Part shown: positions 10,239 through 24,664 of the stretch, piece after piece
How positions within the stretch are numbered: position 1 is the first letter of the stretch
How the letters are laid out: each line of letters opens with the position of its first letter
Origin: Candidatus Zixiibacteriota bacterium
GTDB lineage: Bacteria; Zixibacteria; MSB-5A5; GN15; FEB-12
DNA: 35,973 nt
Direction of reading: 5' to 3'
Assembly (NCBI GenBank): GCA_028715215.1
Contig: JAQUSF010000024.1
Coordinates: forward strand, 1-35,973
The notes under the pieces: model-generated
The model's database searches: none
What the model was told of the DNA's origin: nothing
What the model saw: the letters and a program-made list of their open reading frames with translations, nothing else
Program-made: the position numbers and the translations under genes

Positions 10239-11075
10239 TTAAATTTTACGAAGAGCTTTTATGACACTGACTATAAGATAAGTTAATCCGGCCAGGATAA
10301 TAATAGTGGCGCCGGCGGGAAGGTCGGGACTGTAACTTAAAGCCAGACCAAAAGTCATGAAAAAGATACTCAATAAAGTGGCCAGCACCATGGTCTGCCA
10401 GAGTTTCCGGGTAAAATAACCGGCCACTGCTACCGGTAACGTCAAAAAAGCAATCACCATAACAATCCCGACGACCGTGGTTAAGATTACCACCGTCAAC
10501 GCCGTCAAACATAGCAGTAAAAGATAAAACAACTGCACCCTGACACCGCGTACGCGGGCGAACTCTTCATCAAAACATACCGCCGCAATCTGCTTGTGAA
10601 AAAGATACCCGACTATAACGACAAAAGCGTCCAAGGCGGCAATCAGCCATAAATCTCCCCGTGTCACCATCAGAATATTCCCGAACAGGTAACTCATCAG
10701 GTTTTCGCTGTAACCAGGTGTTTTGGCGATAAAGATTATGCCTACCGCCATCCCAATCGCCCAGATAGCACCGATAACGGTATCCTCGCGTTCTTTTAAA
10801 TAAATGCTGGCCAGGGCGATCGTCACGGCGCTGGCCAGAGCGGCCACCACCGCTCCGTGAAGGGGTTGCAGCCAGCTCAGACCCTGAACCACCTTGAGAT
10901 AATAAGCCAGCCCCATGCCCCCCAGGACACTGTGAGCGATACCGCCAGCAATATAGGTAATCCGGCGGGCAACGACATAAGTCCCCACCACCCCGCAGGC
11001 AATACTCGCCAGGACACCGGTCAACAGGGCATACAACATGAAAGTATGATTGAAAACAGCGTCAATGAATTCCAA
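10239..11075 (-). CDS. znuB: Zinc/manganese-type ABC transporter permease
   Basis: ABC-3 family: GVVGTYVVARRITYIAGGIAHSVLGGMGLAYYL, TTVVGIVMVIAFLTLPVAVAGYFTRKL; in an operon with ATPase and metal-binding protein. Confidence 0.9.
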   Translation of the reverse strand: MEFIDAVFNHTFMLYALLTGVLASIACGVVGTYVVARRITYIAGGIAHSVLGGMGLAYYLKVVQGLSWLQPLHGAVVAALASAVTIALASIYLKEREDTVIGAIWAIGMAVGIIFIAKTPGYSENLMSYLFGNILMVTRGDLWLIAALDAFVVIVGYLFHKQIAAVCFDEEFARVRGVRVQLFYLLLLCLTALTVVILTTVVGIVMVIAFLTLPVAVAGYFTRKLWQTMVLATLLSIFFMTFGLALSYSPDLPAGATIIILAGLTYLIVSVIKALRKI

Positions 11076-11080
11076 AACCG

Positions 11081-11830
11081 TTATTCCTTTTCTGCGGCAC
11101 TGTGACCGTGACGCACCATCCGTACATGGCCATGATACAGTTCACTCAGGACCTCGTCTCCTACTGCCGTGGTCGGGTGAACGGCTACTTTACGATTGAC
11201 GCAGACAACATTTTTTACCGCCTGAGAAACAAAAGCCGGGTCATGAGAGACCATCACAATAGTAAACTGACTGTTAAGTTTATGTAAAAGCTCATACAGT
11301 TCCCTGACCACCAGCAGGTCAAGATTGGCGGTGGGTTCATCCAGAATCAAAAGTTGCGGTTGTGAAGCCAGCGCCCGGGCAATCAGGAGGCGACGTTGTT
11401 GACCCCCTGAAAGGGAAGCAAAATGCCGGTCGGCGAATTCGTTCAAGCCGACTTCTTCAAGCACCTCGTAGGCGACCTGGCGATCTTTCTTCGAAAAAGG
11501 CCCGTAGCGCCGTCCTTCGCCCAGCCGCCCCATTAAAACAACATCGCTAACACTCACCGGAAACCGCTGGTCAAGATGGGCGTGCTGGGGCATATAGCCG
11601 ATTTTCGACCGGGCCTGCTGAGGCGATTTCTCGAATACCCGAACTGCCCCCCCGCTCGGTGTCAGTAAACCCAGTATCAGTTTGACCAGGGTGGTCTTGC
11701 CCCCACCGTTTGGACCGACAATCCAGATAAAATCCTTTTCGCATATGGTAAGGTTGACGTCCTCCAGCACGGTCTCACCATCATAAGCGAAAAAAACTTT
11801 TTCGATTTCGACAACGGCACACTTTTCCAT
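11081..11830 (-). CDS. znuC: Zinc/manganese-type ABC transporter ATP-binding protein
   Basis: Walker A GPNGGGKTTL, IGYMPQHAHLDQRFPVSVSDVVLMGR, LSGGQQRRLLIARALASQPQLLILDEPTANLD. Confidence 0.93.
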   Translation of the reverse strand: MEKCAVVEIEKVFFAYDGETVLEDVNLTICEKDFIWIVGPNGGGKTTLVKLILGLLTPSGGAVRVFEKSPQQARSKIGYMPQHAHLDQRFPVSVSDVVLMGRLGEGRRYGPFSKKDRQVAYEVLEEVGLNEFADRHFASLSGGQQRRLLIARALASQPQLLILDEPTANLDLLVVRELYELLHKLNSQFTIVMVSHDPAFVSQAVKNVVCVNRKVAVHPTTAVGDEVLSELYHGHVRMVRHGHSAAEKE

Positions 11831-12730
11831 TTATTTTTCATTCTTTCCCGAAAGAGCCCGGGCCAGTTCGTCGGCCATAAACTTAAGATTATTGATATAA
11901 TCTTCCGCCAGCGGGTCAAGCGCCACCACCTTTGCCCCGACCGCCCGGGCGATCGTTTCAGCCGTCTTAACGGCGAATTGCGGCTGGACAAAAATCACTT
12001 TCACCCCATCAGCCCGGGCCTGGTCCGTCACTACCGCCAGCTGCCGGGCACCGGGTTCTTTTCCTTCAATTTCCACCGCTACTTGTACCAGGCCATAGTC
12101 AGCGGCGAAATACCCGTACGATGGATGAAAAGCAAAAAATTTACTTCCTTTATACGGTGTCAGCTTCAGCATTATTTCCCGGTCAATATCATCCAGCTGT
12201 CGCTTAAAGATATCAAGGTTGCGCTGATAAAAAGAAGCATGGGCGCTGTCATAAGCCACCAATGCCCGGCAAATATTATCCGCCTGTATTTTTACCCGCT
12301 GTGGTGACAGCCAGATATGCGGGTCCTCGGCTCCGGCATGGTCATGGCCGTCATGTTCCTCACCCTCAATAGCCCGAAGCGGCACTCCCCGACGCGTGTC
12401 AACCACCTCCAGATTCCGAAAAGTAGCGCTTATTTTACCGAGTAACTGCCGTTCAAAGGGAACCCCGATACTGAAATACAACCGGGCTTCAGCCAGTGCC
12501 GTCATCTGACGCGGGGTCGGCTCGTAGGTATGCGGCGACTGTCCCGGACCAACCAGGACCGCCACTTCTACATATTCGCCACCTATCTGTTTAACAAAAT
12601 AAGCCTGGGGAAGAATACTGACAAAAACCTTTAATGGCTCAACCGTGACCTGTGACTTAAGAGAAAAAATACTAATAAACACCATCAGTGTTACAATTAT
12701 TAACGATGATATCATCCATCGTCGAATCAT
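11831..12730 (-). CDS. znuA: Zinc-type ABC transporter substrate-binding lipoprotein/periplasmic protein
   Basis: ORF open from 12778 but start at ATG 12730 (MIRRWMISSLIIVTLMVF signal/TM) preferred. KVFVSILPQAYFVKQIGGEYVEVAVLVGPGQSPHTYEPTPRQM, His-rich loop EEHDGHDHAGAEDPHIWLSP. Confidence 0.92.
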   Translation of the reverse strand: MIRRWMISSLIIVTLMVFISIFSLKSQVTVEPLKVFVSILPQAYFVKQIGGEYVEVAVLVGPGQSPHTYEPTPRQMTALAEARLYFSIGVPFERQLLGKISATFRNLEVVDTRRGVPLRAIEGEEHDGHDHAGAEDPHIWLSPQRVKIQADNICRALVAYDSAHASFYQRNLDIFKRQLDDIDREIMLKLTPYKGSKFFAFHPSYGYFAADYGLVQVAVEIEGKEPGARQLAVVTDQARADGVKVIFVQPQFAVKTAETIARAVGAKVVALDPLAEDYINNLKFMADELARALSGKNEK

Positions 12731-12734
12731 GACC

Positions 12735-12995
12735 CTATCCTTTCTTGGTACAGACCAGGTAATTTTCATGACACTCACAGCATTGTTCGATATGATGGTC
12801 CGCTGCCAGCGAATCCCAGTGTTTCTTCTGTTCCGGAGTCAAAATACCGGTACCATCACACAAAGGACAGGCATTTTCAAAAGCCCGAAGTACCGCGGCA
12901 CGAATAAATTCCGACCGATTGGGCAAATGTCTTATCACCCCGGCCAAAGAGGCATCGACTTTGAAAGTAATAATTTCTGTTTTCTGTTTTCTCAC
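12735..12995 (-). CDS. Ribbon-helix-helix (CopG-like) protein with Cys/His-rich C-terminal metal-binding motif; putative metal-responsive regulator
   Basis: ORF 12735..13061, but a GTG at 12993-12995 with GGAG at 13002-13005 (6-nt spacer) gives MRKQKTEIITFKVDASLAGVIRHLPNRSEFIRAAVLRAFE (RHH-like), followed by CPLCDGTG...HH..QCCECHENYLVC. First gene of the znu operon. Confidence 0.72.
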   Translation of the reverse strand: MRKQKTEIITFKVDASLAGVIRHLPNRSEFIRAAVLRAFENACPLCDGTGILTPEQKKHWDSLAADHHIEQCCECHENYLVCTKKG

Positions 12996-13163: not shown

Positions 13164-15221
13164 TTGCCTCCCATTATGAGAACCTTTATCGTTAAAGATG
13201 CCGGCTGGTCGAAGTATCTTTCCACTTCAGCGGTTTACTTTCTTCTACTTACCATAACGTTGACTTTATTTTTCGAACTCTGGCGTTTGATTCTGCTTAT
13301 TCTGTCCGGCACCCTTTCAGCGGGAGTTCCCGGCCGTATCCTTTTACAATCCTTTCTGGTGGGTTTGAGGTTTGATTTTGCCATCAGTTGTTACCTTGCC
13401 ATACCGTTGTATCTATTGGGCAACCTCCCCCGGCTGGACATTTCCCGCAATAAATTTTTCCGACATTTGAACTTTTACCTGATGGCCTTAGTGGTTGGTC
13501 TGATGTTTTTCCTGCAAATGGCCGACATTGAATTTTTTAAATTTTTCAATTCCCGGCTCAACAGCATCGCCTTGGCGTGGTCGGATACGCCGGGAATAGT
13601 GGTCCCCATGCTCTGGAAGATGTATCCGGTGGTCAGGTACCTGGTTTTGTTTTTGGTGATGTTCACAGGCTTCATAATAATTATCCACTGGTTGAGGGAA
13701 AAAATTATAATCGATAAAGCCCCTTCACCGGTCTGGATTAACCTGGTATATCTACCTCTGGTGCTGGCTGTTTTCCTCCTTGGCGCCCGGGGGCGCGTCG
13801 AGGAAAAATCGCCTCTGCGCTGGGGCACGGCCTATTTCTCGGAGTACGACTATGCCAATCAACTCGCCCTGAACCCGATCTTCACCTTTTTCTATGACGC
13901 CATCTATGACGCCAATAAGAAAGCTCAGATTAAAGAACAGATGGACCGCATTGATATTCCCGACGCCGTCCGGGTGGTGCGGCACCTGTTGGGACTGCCC
14001 GTCGCTTTAGAAGAAGAGAACAACCAGCGGATATTTCGTGAGATAACCTTTACCCCGGAAAACGATGACCCACCGAACGTGATTCTGATTATCATGGAAT
14101 CGTTCGGGTCGACACGCATTGGCATCCTGGACAACCGCTACCCTTATGAAATCACTCCCCGTTTCGATTCTCTTAGCCGGGAAGGGATTCTTTTCACGAA
14201 TTTTTATTCCACCGGGCAACATACCTATACCGGCATTTTCTCAACCCTGTACGGTTACCCGACCCTTTTCGGGAAATCGGTTATGAAAATGGTGACCGGC
14301 CAGAACAGTTTCTGGGGTCTGCCGTCGATTTTACGCCACCATGGCTACGAGACCATGTTTTTTACCACCCACGACCCGCATTTCGACAATATGCAGGGCT
14401 TTTTATGTTCGAATGGAGTGATGAGGCTTTATTCGCTTGACGACTATAACCCCGAATACAAAATAAGCACCCTGGGAGTGCCTGACCATATCATGTTCGA
14501 CTATGCTTATAACATACTGCGAGAGAAAAATGAACATCGTTTCTTCGCCACCCTTCTGACCTCTTCCAACCACGGTCCATGGTTGATTCCCGATGTTCCT
14601 TTTGAACGTATCCCTGCCGAAGACGAAGAGTGGCGCACGAAACTCAACTGTTTTAAATATTCCGACTGGTCACTGGGTTATTTCTTCGATAAAATTAAAA
14701 ACGACCCGGCTTTCAAAAACACCCTGGTGGTGGTAACGAGCGATAACGGCTGCTGGTACGACCCCATCACCGACCATGACCTGACCCAGTTCCAGATACC
14801 GCTTTTTATTTTCGACACCGACGGTCGCCTGGAGAAAAACCGGCGGGTGGAACGCCTCGGGTCGCAGATAGATATCGCAGCCACCGTCATGGGTCAGGTA
14901 CGCTTGAACTATCATGATTACACTTTCGGCCACGACCTGCTTAAAACCTCCGGTAGTGCCGTTGATTATGCACATTTTTCGGAATGGTACAAGGTCGGCT
15001 ATATCGAGAACGATTACCATGTCATTGCCCGTCTGAACGGTCCGACCTCGCTTTACACCGTGGCCAACCGTCGCCGTAACCTGGTCGACTCCCTGCCGGA
15101 TCTGGCTCGTGAATACGAGAAAAAAGCTCTTGCTCTTTTCAAAACGGCTTATGAAAACATGCACCGCCCCCTTCGGCAAGAAACGTCAAGCCCGCAACCG
15201 TTGACCGTATCCGATGATTAA
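13164..15221 (+). CDS. LTA synthase/sulfatase-family membrane protein, paralogue 1
   Basis: N-terminal multi-TM region, then sulfatase fold: NVILIIMESFGSTRIG, NFYSTGQHTYTGIFSTLYGYP, LLTSSNHGPW, VVVTSDNGCWY. Start may be ATG 13176 (MRTF...). Confidence 0.9.
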   Translation: MPPIMRTFIVKDAGWSKYLSTSAVYFLLLTITLTLFFELWRLILLILSGTLSAGVPGRILLQSFLVGLRFDFAISCYLAIPLYLLGNLPRLDISRNKFFRHLNFYLMALVVGLMFFLQMADIEFFKFFNSRLNSIALAWSDTPGIVVPMLWKMYPVVRYLVLFLVMFTGFIIIIHWLREKIIIDKAPSPVWINLVYLPLVLAVFLLGARGRVEEKSPLRWGTAYFSEYDYANQLALNPIFTFFYDAIYDANKKAQIKEQMDRIDIPDAVRVVRHLLGLPVALEEENNQRIFREITFTPENDDPPNVILIIMESFGSTRIGILDNRYPYEITPRFDSLSREGILFTNFYSTGQHTYTGIFSTLYGYPTLFGKSVMKMVTGQNSFWGLPSILRHHGYETMFFTTHDPHFDNMQGFLCSNGVMRLYSLDDYNPEYKISTLGVPDHIMFDYAYNILREKNEHRFFATLLTSSNHGPWLIPDVPFERIPAEDEEWRTKLNCFKYSDWSLGYFFDKIKNDPAFKNTLVVVTSDNGCWYDPITDHDLTQFQIPLFIFDTDGRLEKNRRVERLGSQIDIAATVMGQVRLNYHDYTFGHDLLKTSGSAVDYAHFSEWYKVGYIENDYHVIARLNGPTSLYTVANRRRNLVDSLPDLAREYEKKALALFKTAYENMHRPLRQETSSPQPLTVSDD

Positions 15222-17193
15222 GACCAGATTTATATCCGTCCCGGCCGTTTACGTTTTAATCACGGCGGCTGTCCTGGTGCTGTTTCTGGCGCTGTGGCGA
15301 TTTATCCTTATGCTTCTTTCCGGCGGTTTGTCATCCGCCGTCCCCGGCGACGTTCTCTTCAAAGCCTTCATTGTCGGCCTGCGTTTTGATTTCATCATTG
15401 TCTCGTATATCGGTACGGTAATATATGTTCTTGGCATAATCCCCTTCATTGATATCCAGCGCAGTAAATTCATGCGCCGCCTCGGGTACGTTTTGCTCTT
15501 TGTTTATACGGCTGTTATATTCTTCGTTCACCTGGCGGATATCGAATTTTTCAAATTTTTCAACACCCGCCTTAACGGCATGGCTCTCATCTGGCAGGAC
15601 ACACCCGAGTTCGTCATCACCATGATCTGGGGCATGTACCCGGTCATTAAATACCTGATACTGTATGCCGTCATTCTGGCGGCTTTCTTTTTGTTGATGC
15701 GCCGGCTTCAGCGAAAAGTGGTCACTGACAGCGTAAAATCGCACTGGCTGGTTAATCTTTTATTCGCCCCGGTGCTGTTGACGGTGTTTATAATCGGTAC
15801 GGTTGGAAGGCTGGGTTCCGACGCCCCCCTTCGCTGGGGCGCCGCCTATTTTTCCGAATACGATTATGCCAACCTCCTGGCTCTCAATCCCGTCTATACC
15901 TTCGTACGCGATTTTTTCTATGACGCTGGTAGCAAAGAGCAGGTCAAAAAACTGGTCGCGGAGATGACTTTCCCGGAGGCGGAAAACGAGGTTCGCCGGC
16001 TTCTGGGCTTGCCGGCCGACAGTGCCGCTTACAGCAGTCCGATCGTACGCGAGGTCAATTTCAACCCGCCCGAAGACAACCCGGCCAATGTCATTTTTAT
16101 CATAATGGAATCGCAGTCGTCGCATAAAATCGGCGTTTTAGCCAACAAGTATCCCTGGCAACTCTCGCCCTGTTTTGATTCCCTGGCTGAAAAAAGCATT
16201 CTCTTTACTAATTTCTATGCCACCGGCATGCATACCTACTGCGGCCTGATATCGGCCATCTACGGCAACCCGCACCTTTTCGGCAAGGTCATCATCAAAC
16301 AGGTAAGCGGCGAAAATCATTTCCGGGGACTGCCCTCCATTCTCAAACAGCACGGTTACGAAACTCATTTTTTCTCCACCCAGGACCCCCATTTCGACAA
16401 CATGATGGGCTTCATGAAAGCCAACGGTTTCATGTATTATTATTCGATATATGATTACGACCAGTCCCACAAGCTCAGTCACCTGGGTGTGCCCGACCAT
16501 ATCATGTACGACAGTGCCTACGCCAAACTGCGCCGTCTGGAAGGCCGGCCGTTTCTGGCCACCCTGCTGACGACTTCCAACCACGGTCCGTGGAGAGTCC
16601 CCGATGTTTCTTTTGAACGAATCCCCGACACGGCTTATGAAGCCGAACGTCAGAACGCTTTCAAGTATGCCGACTGGGCGCTGGGACAATTTATAAATAA
16701 AATCGAAAACGACCCCTATTATTACAATACCCTCCTGGTCATTACCGGCGACCACGGTTTCTTTTACAACCCCACCTCGGATTTGGACCTTTCCTTTTTT
16801 GAAGTTCCTTTACTCATTCACCGGGTCGGCTGGGGTAAAGAACATGCTCAACGCAACGACCGCCTGGGCAGTCACCTGGATATCGTCGCCACCATCATGG
16901 GACAGTTGCGTTTTAACTATCATAATTACACTTTCGGCCACGACCTTTTGGATACTGTCACCTATATTACAGATTTCGTGCATACCACCGAATGGTACAA
17001 AATCGGTTATATCGAGAAGGACTATTACCTGATAGTCCGTCTTGACGGTCCCGAGTCGCTTTTCCGACTGCCGAACCGAACCGACGATGTCGCCGCCTTT
17101 CACCCGGAGATTGTCGAAAGCTACAAGAAAAAAGCCCTGGCTCTTTATCAAACCGCCTACTACAATATGAAGCGTCCCCTGCCGGAGAAATAA
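15214..17193 (+). CDS. LTA synthase/sulfatase-family membrane protein, paralogue 2
   Basis: NVIFIIMESQSSHKIG, NFYATGMHTYCGLISAIYGNP, LLTTSNHGPW, LVITGDHGFFY; 8-nt overlap with preceding gene. Confidence 0.9.
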   Translation: MIKTRFISVPAVYVLITAAVLVLFLALWRFILMLLSGGLSSAVPGDVLFKAFIVGLRFDFIIVSYIGTVIYVLGIIPFIDIQRSKFMRRLGYVLLFVYTAVIFFVHLADIEFFKFFNTRLNGMALIWQDTPEFVITMIWGMYPVIKYLILYAVILAAFFLLMRRLQRKVVTDSVKSHWLVNLLFAPVLLTVFIIGTVGRLGSDAPLRWGAAYFSEYDYANLLALNPVYTFVRDFFYDAGSKEQVKKLVAEMTFPEAENEVRRLLGLPADSAAYSSPIVREVNFNPPEDNPANVIFIIMESQSSHKIGVLANKYPWQLSPCFDSLAEKSILFTNFYATGMHTYCGLISAIYGNPHLFGKVIIKQVSGENHFRGLPSILKQHGYETHFFSTQDPHFDNMMGFMKANGFMYYYSIYDYDQSHKLSHLGVPDHIMYDSAYAKLRRLEGRPFLATLLTTSNHGPWRVPDVSFERIPDTAYEAERQNAFKYADWALGQFINKIENDPYYYNTLLVITGDHGFFYNPTSDLDLSFFEVPLLIHRVGWGKEHAQRNDRLGSHLDIVATIMGQLRFNYHNYTFGHDLLDTVTYITDFVHTTEWYKIGYIEKDYYLIVRLDGPESLFRLPNRTDDVAAFHPEIVESYKKKALALYQTAYYNMKRPLPEK

Positions 17194-17195
17194 TC

Positions 17196-19172
17196 ATGCT
17201 GCGGATGAAATACATCTCCGCCCCGGCGGTATTCTTTATTCTGGCGGCGGCAACCCTGACGCTGTTTTTTGAACTCTGGCGGATATTATTTTTAGTATTC
17301 CTTGGCGATCTGGCGGCCGGCGCTCCGCTTTCAACCCTCTTAAAAACCCTGGTGGTCGGACTGAGATTTGATTTCTCCATTACCAGTTATGTTATTCTGC
17401 CGCTTTACCTGTTCAGTGCAGTCCTTTTTTTATTTCCCCGGTACTATCGAACGACAGGAATCACTGTTTTTTATCTGCTGGTAATTTTATCGGCTATGCT
17501 CTTTTTCGCCCACCTGGCGGATATCGAGTTCACCCGGCATTTCCATACCCGCCTGAACGATTTTCTCTTACAGAAATATAAAATAACAGCCAACGGCTTT
17601 AGCCCTATCTGGTTTCCAGCCAAAACCGCAGCCTTAACGGTTATATACCTATTAATACTATACCTGTATATCCGGCTGGTCAGGTACTTAGTGAAAAAAA
17701 TCCTCATTGACCGACCCCGTTCTCCCTGGTGGATCAACCTTATTTATCTGCCTATTCTGATTGCAGCTTTTGGCGTTGGCGCGCGGGGACGGCTGGCCGA
17801 AGAACCCATGCGCTGGGGCATGGCTTATTATTCCGAATATGATTTCGCCAACCTGGCGGCTCTCAACCCGGTCTATACTTTTATCCTTGATGCCGTTTAC
17901 GACCATCGCGAGAAAAAAGCGACCAAAGACCTTATGTCCGAAATCAAATCCGACCACGCCGAAAATGAATTGCGACAACTTCTTGGGATGACGACAGTTG
18001 AAGAAGGTACTCGCCTTATCCGGCCGGTGCGTTTTGAGCAACCGAACGAAAATCCGCCCAGCGTGATCCTGATTATAATGGAATCGTTCGGCTCGACTAA
18101 AATCGATGTTCTGGACAATCGCTTCCCCTATTCTCTGACGCCCTGTTTCGATTCCCTGGCGGCTGAGGGCTTTCTTTTCACCGACTTTTATTCCTGCGGT
18201 AAGCACACTTTCGCCAGCCTGGTGGCGGTGTTGTATGGATACCCGCCGCAATACGGCAAGCTGGTCATGCGGCAGTTACCCGGCGAAAATTACCTGTGGG
18301 GCTTGCCGTCGATTCTTAAAACTTATGATTACAAAACATCATGTTTCGTCACCACCGACCCGCATTTCGATAACATGCAGGGTTTTCTGATGGCTAACGG
18401 GATTATGAAAGCTTACTCGAAGTATGATATCGGTGAAGACAGGTCACTCAGCTGGATGGGTGTACCCGACCATGTCATGTTCGACTTTGCCTGCGATAAA
18501 CTCCGGGAAAATAAAAACCGGCGTTTCTTCGCTACTCTTTTGACCGCCTCCAATCATGGTCCCTGGCTTTTGCCCGACGTACCCTTCGGACGCCTCCCTG
18601 ATACGGTCGAAGACGCTCACAAGCTTAATGCTTTTAAATATTCCGACTGGGCCTTAGGACAGTTTGTCAATAAAATTAAAAGTGACCCTTTCTTTGACAA
18701 TACCCTGATAATTATTACCGCCGACAATGGCTCGCCCTATAAACAGAAAAGCGACCTCGAAATAACCCATTTCCAGATTCCGCTTTTAATAATCGGCAAT
18801 AAAAGCAGTTTCAACCTGAAGGGTACTTCCGGACGGCCGGGCAGCCAGCTGGACATCCTGCCGACTCTGATGGGTATTCTCAAACTTGACTATGACAATT
18901 ATTCATTCGGCAAGGATTTACTTGATACTTCTTATCGGGGAACGGACTTTGTGCACTTTGTTGAAAAAGACCTGCTGGGACATATCGAAAACGGCTATTA
19001 CCTGATTAATCGCCTGCATGGCAAAGAAACACTTTACAAACTACCGGATGTCACTATAGATTTAGCCGATTCCTTAAAGGAAACGGTCGATGAATATCGT
19101 ATGAAATCAGAAGCCATTTTTCAAACGGCTTATTACAACATGAAACGACCGCTGTCACCGATGAAGTTTTAA
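17196..19172 (+). CDS. LTA synthase/sulfatase-family membrane protein, paralogue 3
   Basis: SVILIIMESFGSTKID, DFYSCGKHTFASLVAVLYGYP, LLTASNHGPW, IIITADNGSPY; 2-nt gap from preceding gene. Confidence 0.9.
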   Translation: MLRMKYISAPAVFFILAAATLTLFFELWRILFLVFLGDLAAGAPLSTLLKTLVVGLRFDFSITSYVILPLYLFSAVLFLFPRYYRTTGITVFYLLVILSAMLFFAHLADIEFTRHFHTRLNDFLLQKYKITANGFSPIWFPAKTAALTVIYLLILYLYIRLVRYLVKKILIDRPRSPWWINLIYLPILIAAFGVGARGRLAEEPMRWGMAYYSEYDFANLAALNPVYTFILDAVYDHREKKATKDLMSEIKSDHAENELRQLLGMTTVEEGTRLIRPVRFEQPNENPPSVILIIMESFGSTKIDVLDNRFPYSLTPCFDSLAAEGFLFTDFYSCGKHTFASLVAVLYGYPPQYGKLVMRQLPGENYLWGLPSILKTYDYKTSCFVTTDPHFDNMQGFLMANGIMKAYSKYDIGEDRSLSWMGVPDHVMFDFACDKLRENKNRRFFATLLTASNHGPWLLPDVPFGRLPDTVEDAHKLNAFKYSDWALGQFVNKIKSDPFFDNTLIIITADNGSPYKQKSDLEITHFQIPLLIIGNKSSFNLKGTSGRPGSQLDILPTLMGILKLDYDNYSFGKDLLDTSYRGTDFVHFVEKDLLGHIENGYYLINRLHGKETLYKLPDVTIDLADSLKETVDEYRMKSEAIFQTAYYNMKRPLSPMKF

Positions 19173-21764: not shown

Positions 21765-22097
21765 ATGAATAATTTAACACAAAAAAAATGTATCCCCTGC
21801 GAGGGTGGGCTGACTCCCCTGGCTCGTAACGAATATGAACCCTACCTGGAGCAGCTTCATGACTGGTCTGTCATAGATGACAAACAACTGGTGCGGGAAT
21901 TTATATTTGAGGATTTTAACCGGGCTCTGCAATTTGTCAATGTCGCCGGAGAGATTGCCGAGGAAGAGGGACATCATCCGGATATTTTAATTCACAGCTG
22001 GAATAAAGTTAAAATCATACTCTGGACGCATGCTATCGGCGGACTCTCAGTCAATGATTTCATCGTGGCGGCGAAAATAGAACGAATCACCTTTTAA
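21765..22097 (+). CDS. phhB: Pterin-4a-carbinolamine dehydratase (4a-hydroxytetrahydrobiopterin dehydratase)
   Basis: ORREF-like REFIFEDFNRALQFVNVAGEIAEEEGHHPDILIHSWNKVKIILWTHAIGGLSVNDFIVAAKI; EGHHPD and W.V...L.TH...GL...D motifs. Confidence 0.95.
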   Translation: MNNLTQKKCIPCEGGLTPLARNEYEPYLEQLHDWSVIDDKQLVREFIFEDFNRALQFVNVAGEIAEEEGHHPDILIHSWNKVKIILWTHAIGGLSVNDFIVAAKIERITF

Positions 22098-22150: not shown

Positions 22151-22843
22151 CTACTGATTCCCTTCAATATGTCCCAGGCTGATGCTATCGACCTGTACCT
22201 GGCCGGGGCGTTCGACGGCATAAACCACAGCCTCGGCAATTTCTTCGGGGGGAAGCATCTTATCCTTCGACCAGGTACCTTCGATTTTATCCCAGAGTGC
22301 CGTGGCGGCAGCCTGCGGATAGACATTTATCACCCTTATGCCTCTGGGGCGTAATTCCTCCCGCAGTGACCGGGTTAGTCCTTCCAGGGCAGACTTGCTC
22401 ATGCAATAACTGCTCCAGCGGGGAAAAGCGGTGTGTGCGGCAACCGAGAGAATATTGACGACAGCACTGCCGGGTTTCATGCGGAGGTATAGTTTCTGTA
22501 TCAGCCAGAACGGTGCGGATATATTAACCGCCAGGGTTTCCTGCCATTGCTTCGGCGTGGTTTGTTCGAAAGGCCCGACATGGGCTACCCCGGCGTTGTT
22601 GACCAGAAAGTTAAGGTCATCCTGGCCGACCATGGCAACCAGCTCCTCAATACCGGCCAGGGTGCTTATATCGGCCTGCAGTGCCATAGCCACGGCTCCC
22701 TTATCATGAACCATCCGGCAGCTTTCATCCAGAGCCTTTCGGTCCCGCCCGTGCAACAGCAATATTCTGCCTTCCCGGGCCAGCCTGACGGCAATCGCCC
22801 GGCCCACCCCCCGGCTGGCACCGGTTATCAAACATCGTTCCAT
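22151..22843 (-). CDS. Short-chain dehydrogenase/reductase (SDR); candidate pterin reductase by context
   Basis: TGASRGVGRAIA Rossmann motif, NNAG, catalytic NILSVAAHTAFPRWSSYCMSK (Ser...YxxxK). Sepiapterin-reductase-like role inferred from neighbours only. Confidence 0.88.
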   Translation of the reverse strand: MERCLITGASRGVGRAIAVRLAREGRILLLHGRDRKALDESCRMVHDKGAVAMALQADISTLAGIEELVAMVGQDDLNFLVNNAGVAHVGPFEQTTPKQWQETLAVNISAPFWLIQKLYLRMKPGSAVVNILSVAAHTAFPRWSSYCMSKSALEGLTRSLREELRPRGIRVINVYPQAAATALWDKIEGTWSKDKMLPPEEIAEAVVYAVERPGQVQVDSISLGHIEGNQ

Positions 22844-22875: not shown

Positions 22876-24099
22876 TTAATCGATACTTCGCCGTAAGGTA
22901 AAACGATTATTGGGCGTCTCCCATAACCGCAGACGGTAAAGCGGCCGCGCCAGCGTTTTCTCCAGCCGGTTCCAGAGAACCCGGATAATATTTTCCCCGG
23001 TGCTCGGCCGGTCCTTAAAATCCGGCGTATCCAGGTCAAGGTGTTTTAAATTCCAGGATTCAAGGGCGAGAGCAAGATTGTCATGGAAATCATCAAGGCC
23101 ATAGAATATCCCGCGCCGTTCATCAAGCTCGCCGTCGATGGTGCTCTCCACGTCATACCGATGGCCGTGCCCCTGGGGATTATTACACTTGCCGTAAAGC
23201 ATGAGGTTTTTCTCGTCCGTTAATAAGGGGCTGTGCAGGCGATGAGCCGCCCGAAAAGCGGTTTTTATGCCCATTAAGGACTTCCCGTTTTTCAAATACT
23301 CGGCGAAGAAATAGGGATTTTCCCACAATCGTACCCGGGCTACCGGCAGGGAAATCCGTAACTGACCGAAAATAAACCTCGCCAGGAACTCCGTGGTCAT
23401 GGGTAAACCGTTCAGCTCCGGAACTTCGAGATTAAGATGACGGTGGTCGAGACTGTTATGCAACAAACCCAGCACCTGGACCACCTCGTTTTCATTTTTA
23501 ATCATACCTGTTTCCGGGTCCGGTTCGCCTTCGAGAGTCACCCGCAACCTGTAAAAATGACCATGGCCGCTTTTCGCCGATGCCACGCCGAACAATTTTT
23601 CATTTTCTTCATCGGAGAGATGCGGCGAACCGGTACGGCGGGCGGCGGAGAATTCCAGCCAGAAATCTCGTTCCACGCGGCCGTCGGCATAAGCAGTGGC
23701 GGCGTCAAAAGGCGAGGTTGCCAAATGACAGGCGGCCAGGTGGGCACTTTCATCATCAAATAAAACCCGGGCTTCGGAAAAAAGCCGGCGGGCTACATTC
23801 TCCGGAGTGGGAACGACCTTATCATAAGGCGGAGTATCGCGATTGAGAAACTTATGGTCATAACGCCCCGCCAGCAGACGGTTGATGCGTTCCTTGACGG
23901 ACGTTATATTGATCACCATGCCGCTTTTTTCATCGACCGGGCCGCTTAAAACGAAATAAACCGTCCAGTTGCCGCCGTAACCGTAGGGGCCGCCCATCCA
24001 GAAACCAAAAACCTCCCGGTTTTTTTCCGGCGGCCAGTCCTCGCGATAATAACGGTAGGAAAGCGATACCTCGAATCTTTTACTTATGACCAGGTGCAT
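22876..24099 (-). CDS. Three-module 6-pyruvoyl-tetrahydropterin synthase / 6-carboxytetrahydropterin synthase (PTPS/QueD)-like protein
   Basis: Three tandem PTPS-like repeats (about aa 1-140, 142-270, 275-407). Module 3 has AAHRLHS, LYGKCNNPQGHGHRY and RLWETPNN; module 2 has SGHGHFY and LDHRHLN; module 1 has YDHKFLN and a degenerate YGYGGNW. Confidence 0.88.
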   Translation of the reverse strand: MHLVISKRFEVSLSYRYYREDWPPEKNREVFGFWMGGPYGYGGNWTVYFVLSGPVDEKSGMVINITSVKERINRLLAGRYDHKFLNRDTPPYDKVVPTPENVARRLFSEARVLFDDESAHLAACHLATSPFDAATAYADGRVERDFWLEFSAARRTGSPHLSDEENEKLFGVASAKSGHGHFYRLRVTLEGEPDPETGMIKNENEVVQVLGLLHNSLDHRHLNLEVPELNGLPMTTEFLARFIFGQLRISLPVARVRLWENPYFFAEYLKNGKSLMGIKTAFRAAHRLHSPLLTDEKNLMLYGKCNNPQGHGHRYDVESTIDGELDERRGIFYGLDDFHDNLALALESWNLKHLDLDTPDFKDRPSTGENIIRVLWNRLEKTLARPLYRLRLWETPNNRFTLRRSID

Positions 24100-24109
24100 A
24101 ACGGCTTCT

Positions 24110-24664
24110 TCAATGCTTGCAGATTAAAGTCATAAACTCGGAGCGGGTCTCCGCGTCATCGTGCATCTCCCCCAGAACGCACGAGGTGGTCATGACCGAA
24201 TTCTGTTTTTCCACTCCCCGCATCATCATGCACAGGTGTTGCGCCTCGATAACCACTCCTACCCCCAGGGCCCCGGTGTAATTCTGGATGGTAACGGCAA
24301 TTTGCTTGGTAAGGTTTTCCTGAATCTGCAGCCGACGGGCAAAGGCATCCACCAGGCGGGCAACCTTCGACAAGCCCAGCACCTTCCCGTTGGGAATGTA
24401 ACCCACGTGACATTTACCGATAAAAGGCAAGAGATGATGTTCACACATCGAATAGAGCTCGATATTCTTGACCACCACCATTTCCCTGATATCCGATTCG
24501 AACAGGGCGTTGTTGACCAATTTATCAATATCTTCCTGGTAACCTTTAGTTAAAAACTGAAACGCTCTGGCGGCTCGAGCCGGTGTTTTCAAAAGTCCTT
24601 CGCGGTCGGGATTCTCACCCACCATTTCTATTAAATGCCGGTACAACTGCTCCATCTGCTGCAT
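24110..24664 (-). CDS. folE: GTP cyclohydrolase I
   Basis: [52 protein letters not shown]...[20 protein letters not shown]; canonical type IA motifs. Confidence 0.97.

Follow-up and report, generated by a model that had tools for sequence, protein, structure and literature searches.

We found that a single gene in the analysed window (the whole stretch of 35,973 nucleotides from a Candidatus Zixiibacteriota bacterium) encodes three consecutive modules of 6-pyruvoyl-tetrahydropterin synthase (PTPS), among which the catalytic residues of the family are divided. The same division recurs without exception in all 41 distinct three-module sequences that we compared, so the residue pattern is not chance. 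We propose that the product is probably a PTPS-II in the form of a fused trimer, with one complete active site that would combine the pocket of module 3 with the Asp-His pair of an upstream module, and that it makes a precursor of the cofactor tetrahydrobiopterin (BH4).

A three-module gene with divided catalytic residues

Translation placed the open reading frame on the minus strand, from 24099 to 22876, with 407 aa plus a stop, and the plus strand across the same positions carries many stops; the first-pass annotation had named no strand. The Pfam model PF01242 (PTPS) matched the product three times, each match above the cut-off, in agreement with the three modules read by the first-pass annotation, and these three were the only PF01242 matches in the 3.2-Mb genome of the source. 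According to the HMM boundaries and a residue table, module 1 (residues 1-138; 23686-24099, minus strand) retains Asp-His in a degenerate pocket; module 2 (residues 139-271; 23287-23685, minus strand) retains Asp-His, HGH and Glu, with Zn ligand 1 replaced by Arg154 and Cys by Ala173; and module 3 (residues 272-407; 22879-23286, minus strand) has a complete Zn/Cys/Glu pocket without Asp-His. In alignments of module 3 with the PTPS of rat, human and C. elegans, the match to the rat enzyme took in almost all of the module, with the three Zn-binding His, the Cys and the Glu in register. When all modules and rat PTPS were aligned to one HMM, the rat Asp-His landed on N350-L351, and thus alignment did not restore the pair in module 3.

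To follow these residues across homologues, we searched 37 genomes of the source's family and found the three-module gene in 19 of them, the proteins of the other 18 showing 42-73% identity to the query. When the scan was widened to 85,462 species genomes, more Zixibacteria came up, as did Verrucomicrobia/Chthoniobacterales with this architecture (45-50% identity). Residue statistics were taken over the 41 distinct three-module sequences from these two unrelated groups of uncultured bacteria. In module 3, Zn ligand 1 (H286; 23242-23244), the catalytic Cys (C305; 23185-23187), Zn ligands 2 and 3 (H311-G-H313; 23161-23169) and the pterin-anchoring Glu (E394; 22918-22920), all on the minus strand, are invariant in 41/41 (0 bits), as is a Thr, and the module has 25 invariant columns. 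An intact Asp-His was present in none of the 41 (N350-L351; 23047-23052, minus strand); both columns are highly variable (2.57 bits for D, 2.11 bits for H), and one lineage (L059/L022) has His-His in this place, so that there the His is not lost. Modules 1 and 2 show the complement, since each retains Asp-His in 41/41 and neither has a complete pocket.

The pair of module 1 (D81-H82; 23854-23859, minus strand), which aligns with rat D88-H89, belongs to just 14 invariant columns among the 135 of that module, in which the Zn and Cys columns vary (1.8-2.3 bits) and so does the Glu column (0.9 bits). On the composite-site reading, residues that are hallmarks of PTPS elsewhere vary at those interfaces from which the partner half is gone. 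In module 2, the Asp-His pair (D218-H219; 23443-23448, minus strand) is accompanied by an invariant Thr and Glu and by H179-G-H181 (23557-23565, minus strand), which is retained despite the loss of Cys and Zn ligand 1: the Zn2 His is present in 41/41 and the Zn3 His in 40/41, with one alignment gap. The Zn1 column holds Arg in every sequence (R154; 23638-23640, minus strand), and the Cys column holds Ala, Ser or Thr in all 41. The residues named in the first-pass annotation (H286, C305, H311, H313, E394, N350-L351, D81-H82, D218-H219, A173, R154 and YGYGG) were all correctly read, and the complementary losses that it described proved to be the same in all 41 homologues from Zixibacteria and Verrucomicrobia. 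Two details needed amendment. It had left the Cys column of module 1 at W34 or M35, and the alignment selects M35. The YGYGG of module 1, present here, is not general: this decay is typical of the source's own genus, and many three-module relatives retain HGH in module 1, yet without the Cys.

An AlphaFold2 model of the monomer, built with 28 own and fetched sequences, had a mean pLDDT of 95.2 and a pTM of 0.91. Both module joints in the model are four-residue turns between strand beta4 of one module and beta1 of the next (E132-137/E142-154 and E264-269/E274-286). To fuse adjacent subunits of a T-fold barrel, strand 4 of one would need to run into strand 1 of the next, as it does here. A two-module relative from Poribacteria (L076) was predicted with the same type of joint (pLDDT 95.7, pTM 0.90). 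With Foldseek, one module superposed on human PTPS over about 135 columns (rmsd 1.3, probability 1.00); the rmsd to human and rat chains ranged from 1.3 to 1.5, and the best matches of known structure were single PTPS chains, those of human, rat and C. elegans. Neither Foldseek nor the sequence search of the PDB yielded a multi-module PTPS. The covalent pseudo-trimer suggested earlier is thus partly supported, by a confident predicted fold and by tight beta4-beta1 hairpins between the modules; one chain may form a closed three-membered ring.

Gene neighbourhood and pathway

The PTPS gene is the middle one of three minus-strand genes. The operon starts with FolE, GTP cyclohydrolase I (24110-24664; PF01227 and NCBIfam FolE), 10 bases upstream of the PTPS gene. 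At 32 bases downstream follows a short-chain dehydrogenase (SDR), a probable sepiapterin reductase (22151-22843; PF00106); it matched PDB 2bd0, whose chain is named sepiapterin reductase, along almost all of its sequence (E 4e-29, second best PDB chain). A convergent gene on the plus strand (21765-22097; PF01329) encodes pterin-4a-carbinolamine dehydratase, an enzyme of BH4 recycling. Where the contig reaches far enough, nearly all three-module loci have FolE immediately upstream, an SDR immediately downstream, or both, and most of these loci have a biopterin-dependent hydroxylase of about 600 aa on the same contig. Among 61 related genomes, Biopterin_H was present in 14 of the 19 that carry the three-module gene and in 3 of the 42 that lack it (Fisher p 2.5e-7); within the family, where 3 of the 18 genomes lacking the gene had Biopterin_H, the comparison gave p 8e-4. 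Both p values ignore shared ancestry. The source genome (G000, 94% complete) and its sister (G001) gave no Biopterin_H match, a point against our reading, and the BH4 user of the source may be something other than Biopterin_H or may be encoded in the missing sequence. The new reaction that had been envisaged for this protein is not what these data favour: the PTPS-II motif, the FolE and SDR flanks and the co-occurrence with Biopterin_H point to BH4 synthesis, which appears to be the best-supported role of the operon.

We consider it very improbable that the protein serves another reaction, either as QueD in queuosine synthesis or in a PTPS-III-like folate step. The NCBIfam QueD equivalog did score the 407-aa protein above its cut-off (109.9 vs 89.25 bits); however, this score spans three matched stretches, and the model also scores other multi-module relatives, giving similar values for two-module ones that stand in FolE-SDR clusters. 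Automatic annotation may name these BH4-type proteins QueD, a likely annotation error. The motif CxxxxxHGH marks PTPS-II, whereas CxxxHGH marks PTPS-I/QueD and ExxHGH marks PTPS-III (PMC5041015). Module 3 has the first of these, as C-x5-HGH (CNNPQGHGH), with Cys and HGH in 41/41; this spacing differs from that of CxxxHGH, and ExxHGH is absent from the module. Neither QueC nor QueE was found beside any three-module locus, and the source genome contains no full-length QueC and no separate QueD. In eight three-module genomes, a separate single-module PTPS shares a contig with full-length QueC, as QueD would. Folate has its own genes in the source, since a second FolE, FolB and DHPS are present. 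Motif, neighbouring genes and gene content of the genome thus led us to reject the new reaction along with the QueD and folate roles.

Elsewhere in the window, a zinc uptake ABC transporter is encoded on the minus strand at 10239-12778, about 10 kb from the Zn-dependent PTPS (ZnuA by Pfam, ATPase and permease by eye). The plus strand at 13164-19172 carries a tandem triplication, three consecutive genes whose products, of 658-685 aa, have hydrophobic stretches at the N terminus as well as a sulfatase domain (PF00884) and look LTA-synthase-like by eye.

Two-module relatives and the history of the fusion

The scan of 85,462 genomes also recovered two-module PTPS from Chloroflexota, Poribacteria, Bacillota, Planctomycetota, Armatimonadota, Acidobacteriota and others. 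The C-terminal pocket was complete in all 46 two-module chains, a set that counts L066, a truncated three-module gene. Asp-His was lost from the C-module in 22 of the 46 and from the N-module in 14; neither module had lost it in 10, and no chain had lost both. Complementary loss is also seen in at least three further lineages of two-module relatives. When a tree was built with the catalytic columns left out, the C-terminal Asp-His state changed at least four times, with losses in the three-module clade, in Chloroflexales, in one Acidobacteriota group and in Poribacteria, and the N-terminal state changed at least twice (Bacillota and Armatimonadota); with so few independent events, mutual exclusion of the losses does not reach significance on the tree.

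The losses took different forms. In Armatimonadota (L088, L092, L109-L112), the N-module is without Cys and Asp-His and the C-module is intact; at four of these loci (L109-L112), neither FolE nor an SDR neighbours the gene on the DNA examined. Bacillota (L091, L094, L103-L108) show the opposite loss, with Asp-His changed to Asp-Gly in the N-module and the C-module intact. In addition, unfused adjacent PTPS gene pairs were seen at three loci (L093, 6983-7816; L098, 6956-7813; L113, 3718-4641), each gene with a full catalytic set, and these pairs look like the pre-fusion state.

In a tree of individual modules, modules 1, 2 and 3 each formed a single clade (SH-aLRT 99-100); module 3 grouped with the C-modules and rat PTPS (99), and modules 1 and 2 grouped with the N-modules. 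The simplest history would be a single tandem duplication and fusion followed by one gain of an extra N-type module; the gain would predate the passage of the gene between Zixibacteria and Verrucomicrobia, whether by transfer or by descent. The Verrucomicrobia/Chthoniobacterales loci (L044-L058, L060-L062, L074) carry the FolE-PTPS3-SDR cluster as well, and often a biopterin-dependent hydroxylase is encoded downstream on the opposite strand; it is possible that the whole cluster was transferred between the two phyla.

Proposed assembly of the active site and known systems

In ordinary PTPS, the Cys comes from one subunit and the Asp-His from the adjacent one, and Burgisser 1995 is said to have spoken of an 'intersubunit catalytic triad'; the first-pass annotation, which proposed a composite active site, was silent on this point. 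Since PTPS already uses an intersubunit triad, a composite site here would be nothing but that familiar site with each half confined to a different module of one chain: the fusion would divide an existing composite site and invent none, an account that fits the pattern better than the wording of the annotation. With the losses conserved in every homologue, a composite site appears to be the best reading of the sequences.

We propose that fusion has joined the trimer of ordinary PTPS, head to tail, into a single chain, such that one chain would form one ring and two chains would form the usual stacked ring pair, corresponding to the dimer-of-trimers hexamer of PTPS-II, and that fusion would have made the three interfaces unequal. 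The sole complete site would consist of the module 3 pocket (H286, H311, H313, C305 and E394) and the Asp-His of an upstream module, the donor most likely being D218-H219 of module 2. The module 2 pocket and the Asp-His of module 1 would form a conserved but Zn- and Cys-impaired site, and the module 1 pocket and the lost Asp-His of module 3 would form a dead site, decayed on both sides. The fused chain would convert the dihydroneopterin triphosphate made by FolE into 6-pyruvoyl-tetrahydropterin, which the neighbouring sepiapterin-reductase-like SDR would carry on to BH4. We infer this catalytic activity and pathway product from sequence; in the open-licence literature, we found no enzyme assay of a three-module PTPS protein.

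The choice of donor depends on how conservation is distributed over the interfaces. If each pocket receives Asp-His from the preceding module, the module 3 pocket and the module 2 pair are both invariant, the module 1 pocket and the module 3 pair are both decayed, and at the third interface a largely conserved module 2 pocket meets the invariant pair of module 1. This pairing matches the conservation and favours D218-H219 as the partner of C305, on the basis of only three interfaces. It is unlikely, although it is the strongest of the competing readings, that D81-H82 of module 1 instead reaches the module 3 pocket at the interface where the ring would close without a covalent link. In a closed ring, module 3 has module 1 as its second neighbour, and the Asp-His of module 1 is invariant despite the decay of the module 1 pocket; on the reading with module 2 as donor, that invariant pair would serve an impaired site, which counts against it. 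However, donation by the following module would set an invariant pair (module 2) against a decayed pocket (module 1) and a conserved pocket (module 2) against a lost pair (module 3), and the model and the known topology of the fold place the Zn site on strands 1-2, the edge at which a module pairs with the one before it.

We hold it to be improbable that module 3 works alone, homotypically between chains or without Asp-His, with modules 1 and 2 as scaffolds in which Asp-His is structural. Such a role would account for the invariance of the pair in modules 1 and 2, but a structural Asp-His would be expected in module 3 too, where its columns are so variable, and the two-module proteins have lost the pair from one module or the other and never from both. 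The Armatimonadota two-module proteins do speak for this reading and against ours: with an N-module lacking both Cys and Asp-His, no N-C triad is possible, and a ring of alternating N- and C-modules would be left with no full triad. These proteins either assemble in another way or can dispense with Asp-His. That the gene is decaying or chimeric has a negligible probability. Catalytic residues are indeed gone from two of the three modules, yet the frame is open over about 400-414 aa in full-length members of two phyla, module 3 keeps its many invariant columns and each module has a single origin; decay is refuted by conservation.

Returning to the fused ring with module 2 as donor, it is conceivable, if rather doubtful, that the module 2 pocket and the module 1 Asp-His make a selected second site, regulatory in function, which with Arg in the Zn1 position and no Cys would bind pterin or nucleotide without turnover. 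If so, the ring would be an asymmetric enzyme, one catalytic pocket being controlled by one regulatory pocket. More generally, the family is a natural experiment: in ordinary PTPS the active site lies where identical subunits meet, and in the fused chain each half-site has been kept or lost on its own. Point mutations in one chain can probe which Asp-His is needed, how many sites a ring requires and whether Asp-His is essential, whereas equivalent mutations in a homohexamer would strike all sites together. Unfused pairs, two intact modules, two modules with complementary losses and three modules make up a graded series, a record of the passage from symmetric to asymmetric.

The three-module protein resembles PTPS-II of rat, human and Synechococcus in fold, in Zn-His3, Cys and Glu, in the C-x5-HGH of module 3, in the predicted supply of Asp-His by a neighbour and in its position between FolE and sepiapterin reductase. 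It differs in that one gene holds three modules among which the halves of the triad are permanently divided, and in that one complete site per chain is predicted where PTPS-II has three sites per trimer. A dual-domain bacterial PTPS was reportedly described by Kong et al. 2006; it likewise has tandem PTPS modules in the BH4 pathway, and our two-module relatives are probably of this kind. Two modules alone, however, cannot close a ring of three, and the three-module form adds an N-type module. QueD (PTPS-I) shares the superfamily and the Zn site, but it has CxxxHGH and a single module and clusters with QueC/QueE, and it coexists with the three-module gene in some genomes. The open-licence literature yielded no account of a PTPS with three modules, nor of a triad divided among them in this fixed way. 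Dual-domain PTPS is already known, as are intersubunit sites split by fusion, in QueF and dUTPase. Bimodular QueF has a tandem T-fold in which the motif and the Cys/Glu of a former intersubunit site are split between modules (PMC5372742); unlike the three-module PTPS, it reduces a nitrile, has two modules and lacks a central tunnel. As a guide to the direction of donation, QueF was given little weight, because the compared residues lie at different places of the T-fold. In the monomeric herpesvirus dUTPase, the subunits of a trimeric enzyme have been fused, one site remaining between two domains and the others being lost (PMC12524310); the principle is the same as in the three-module PTPS, although the fold is unrelated, the domains are two and the motifs have been relocated.
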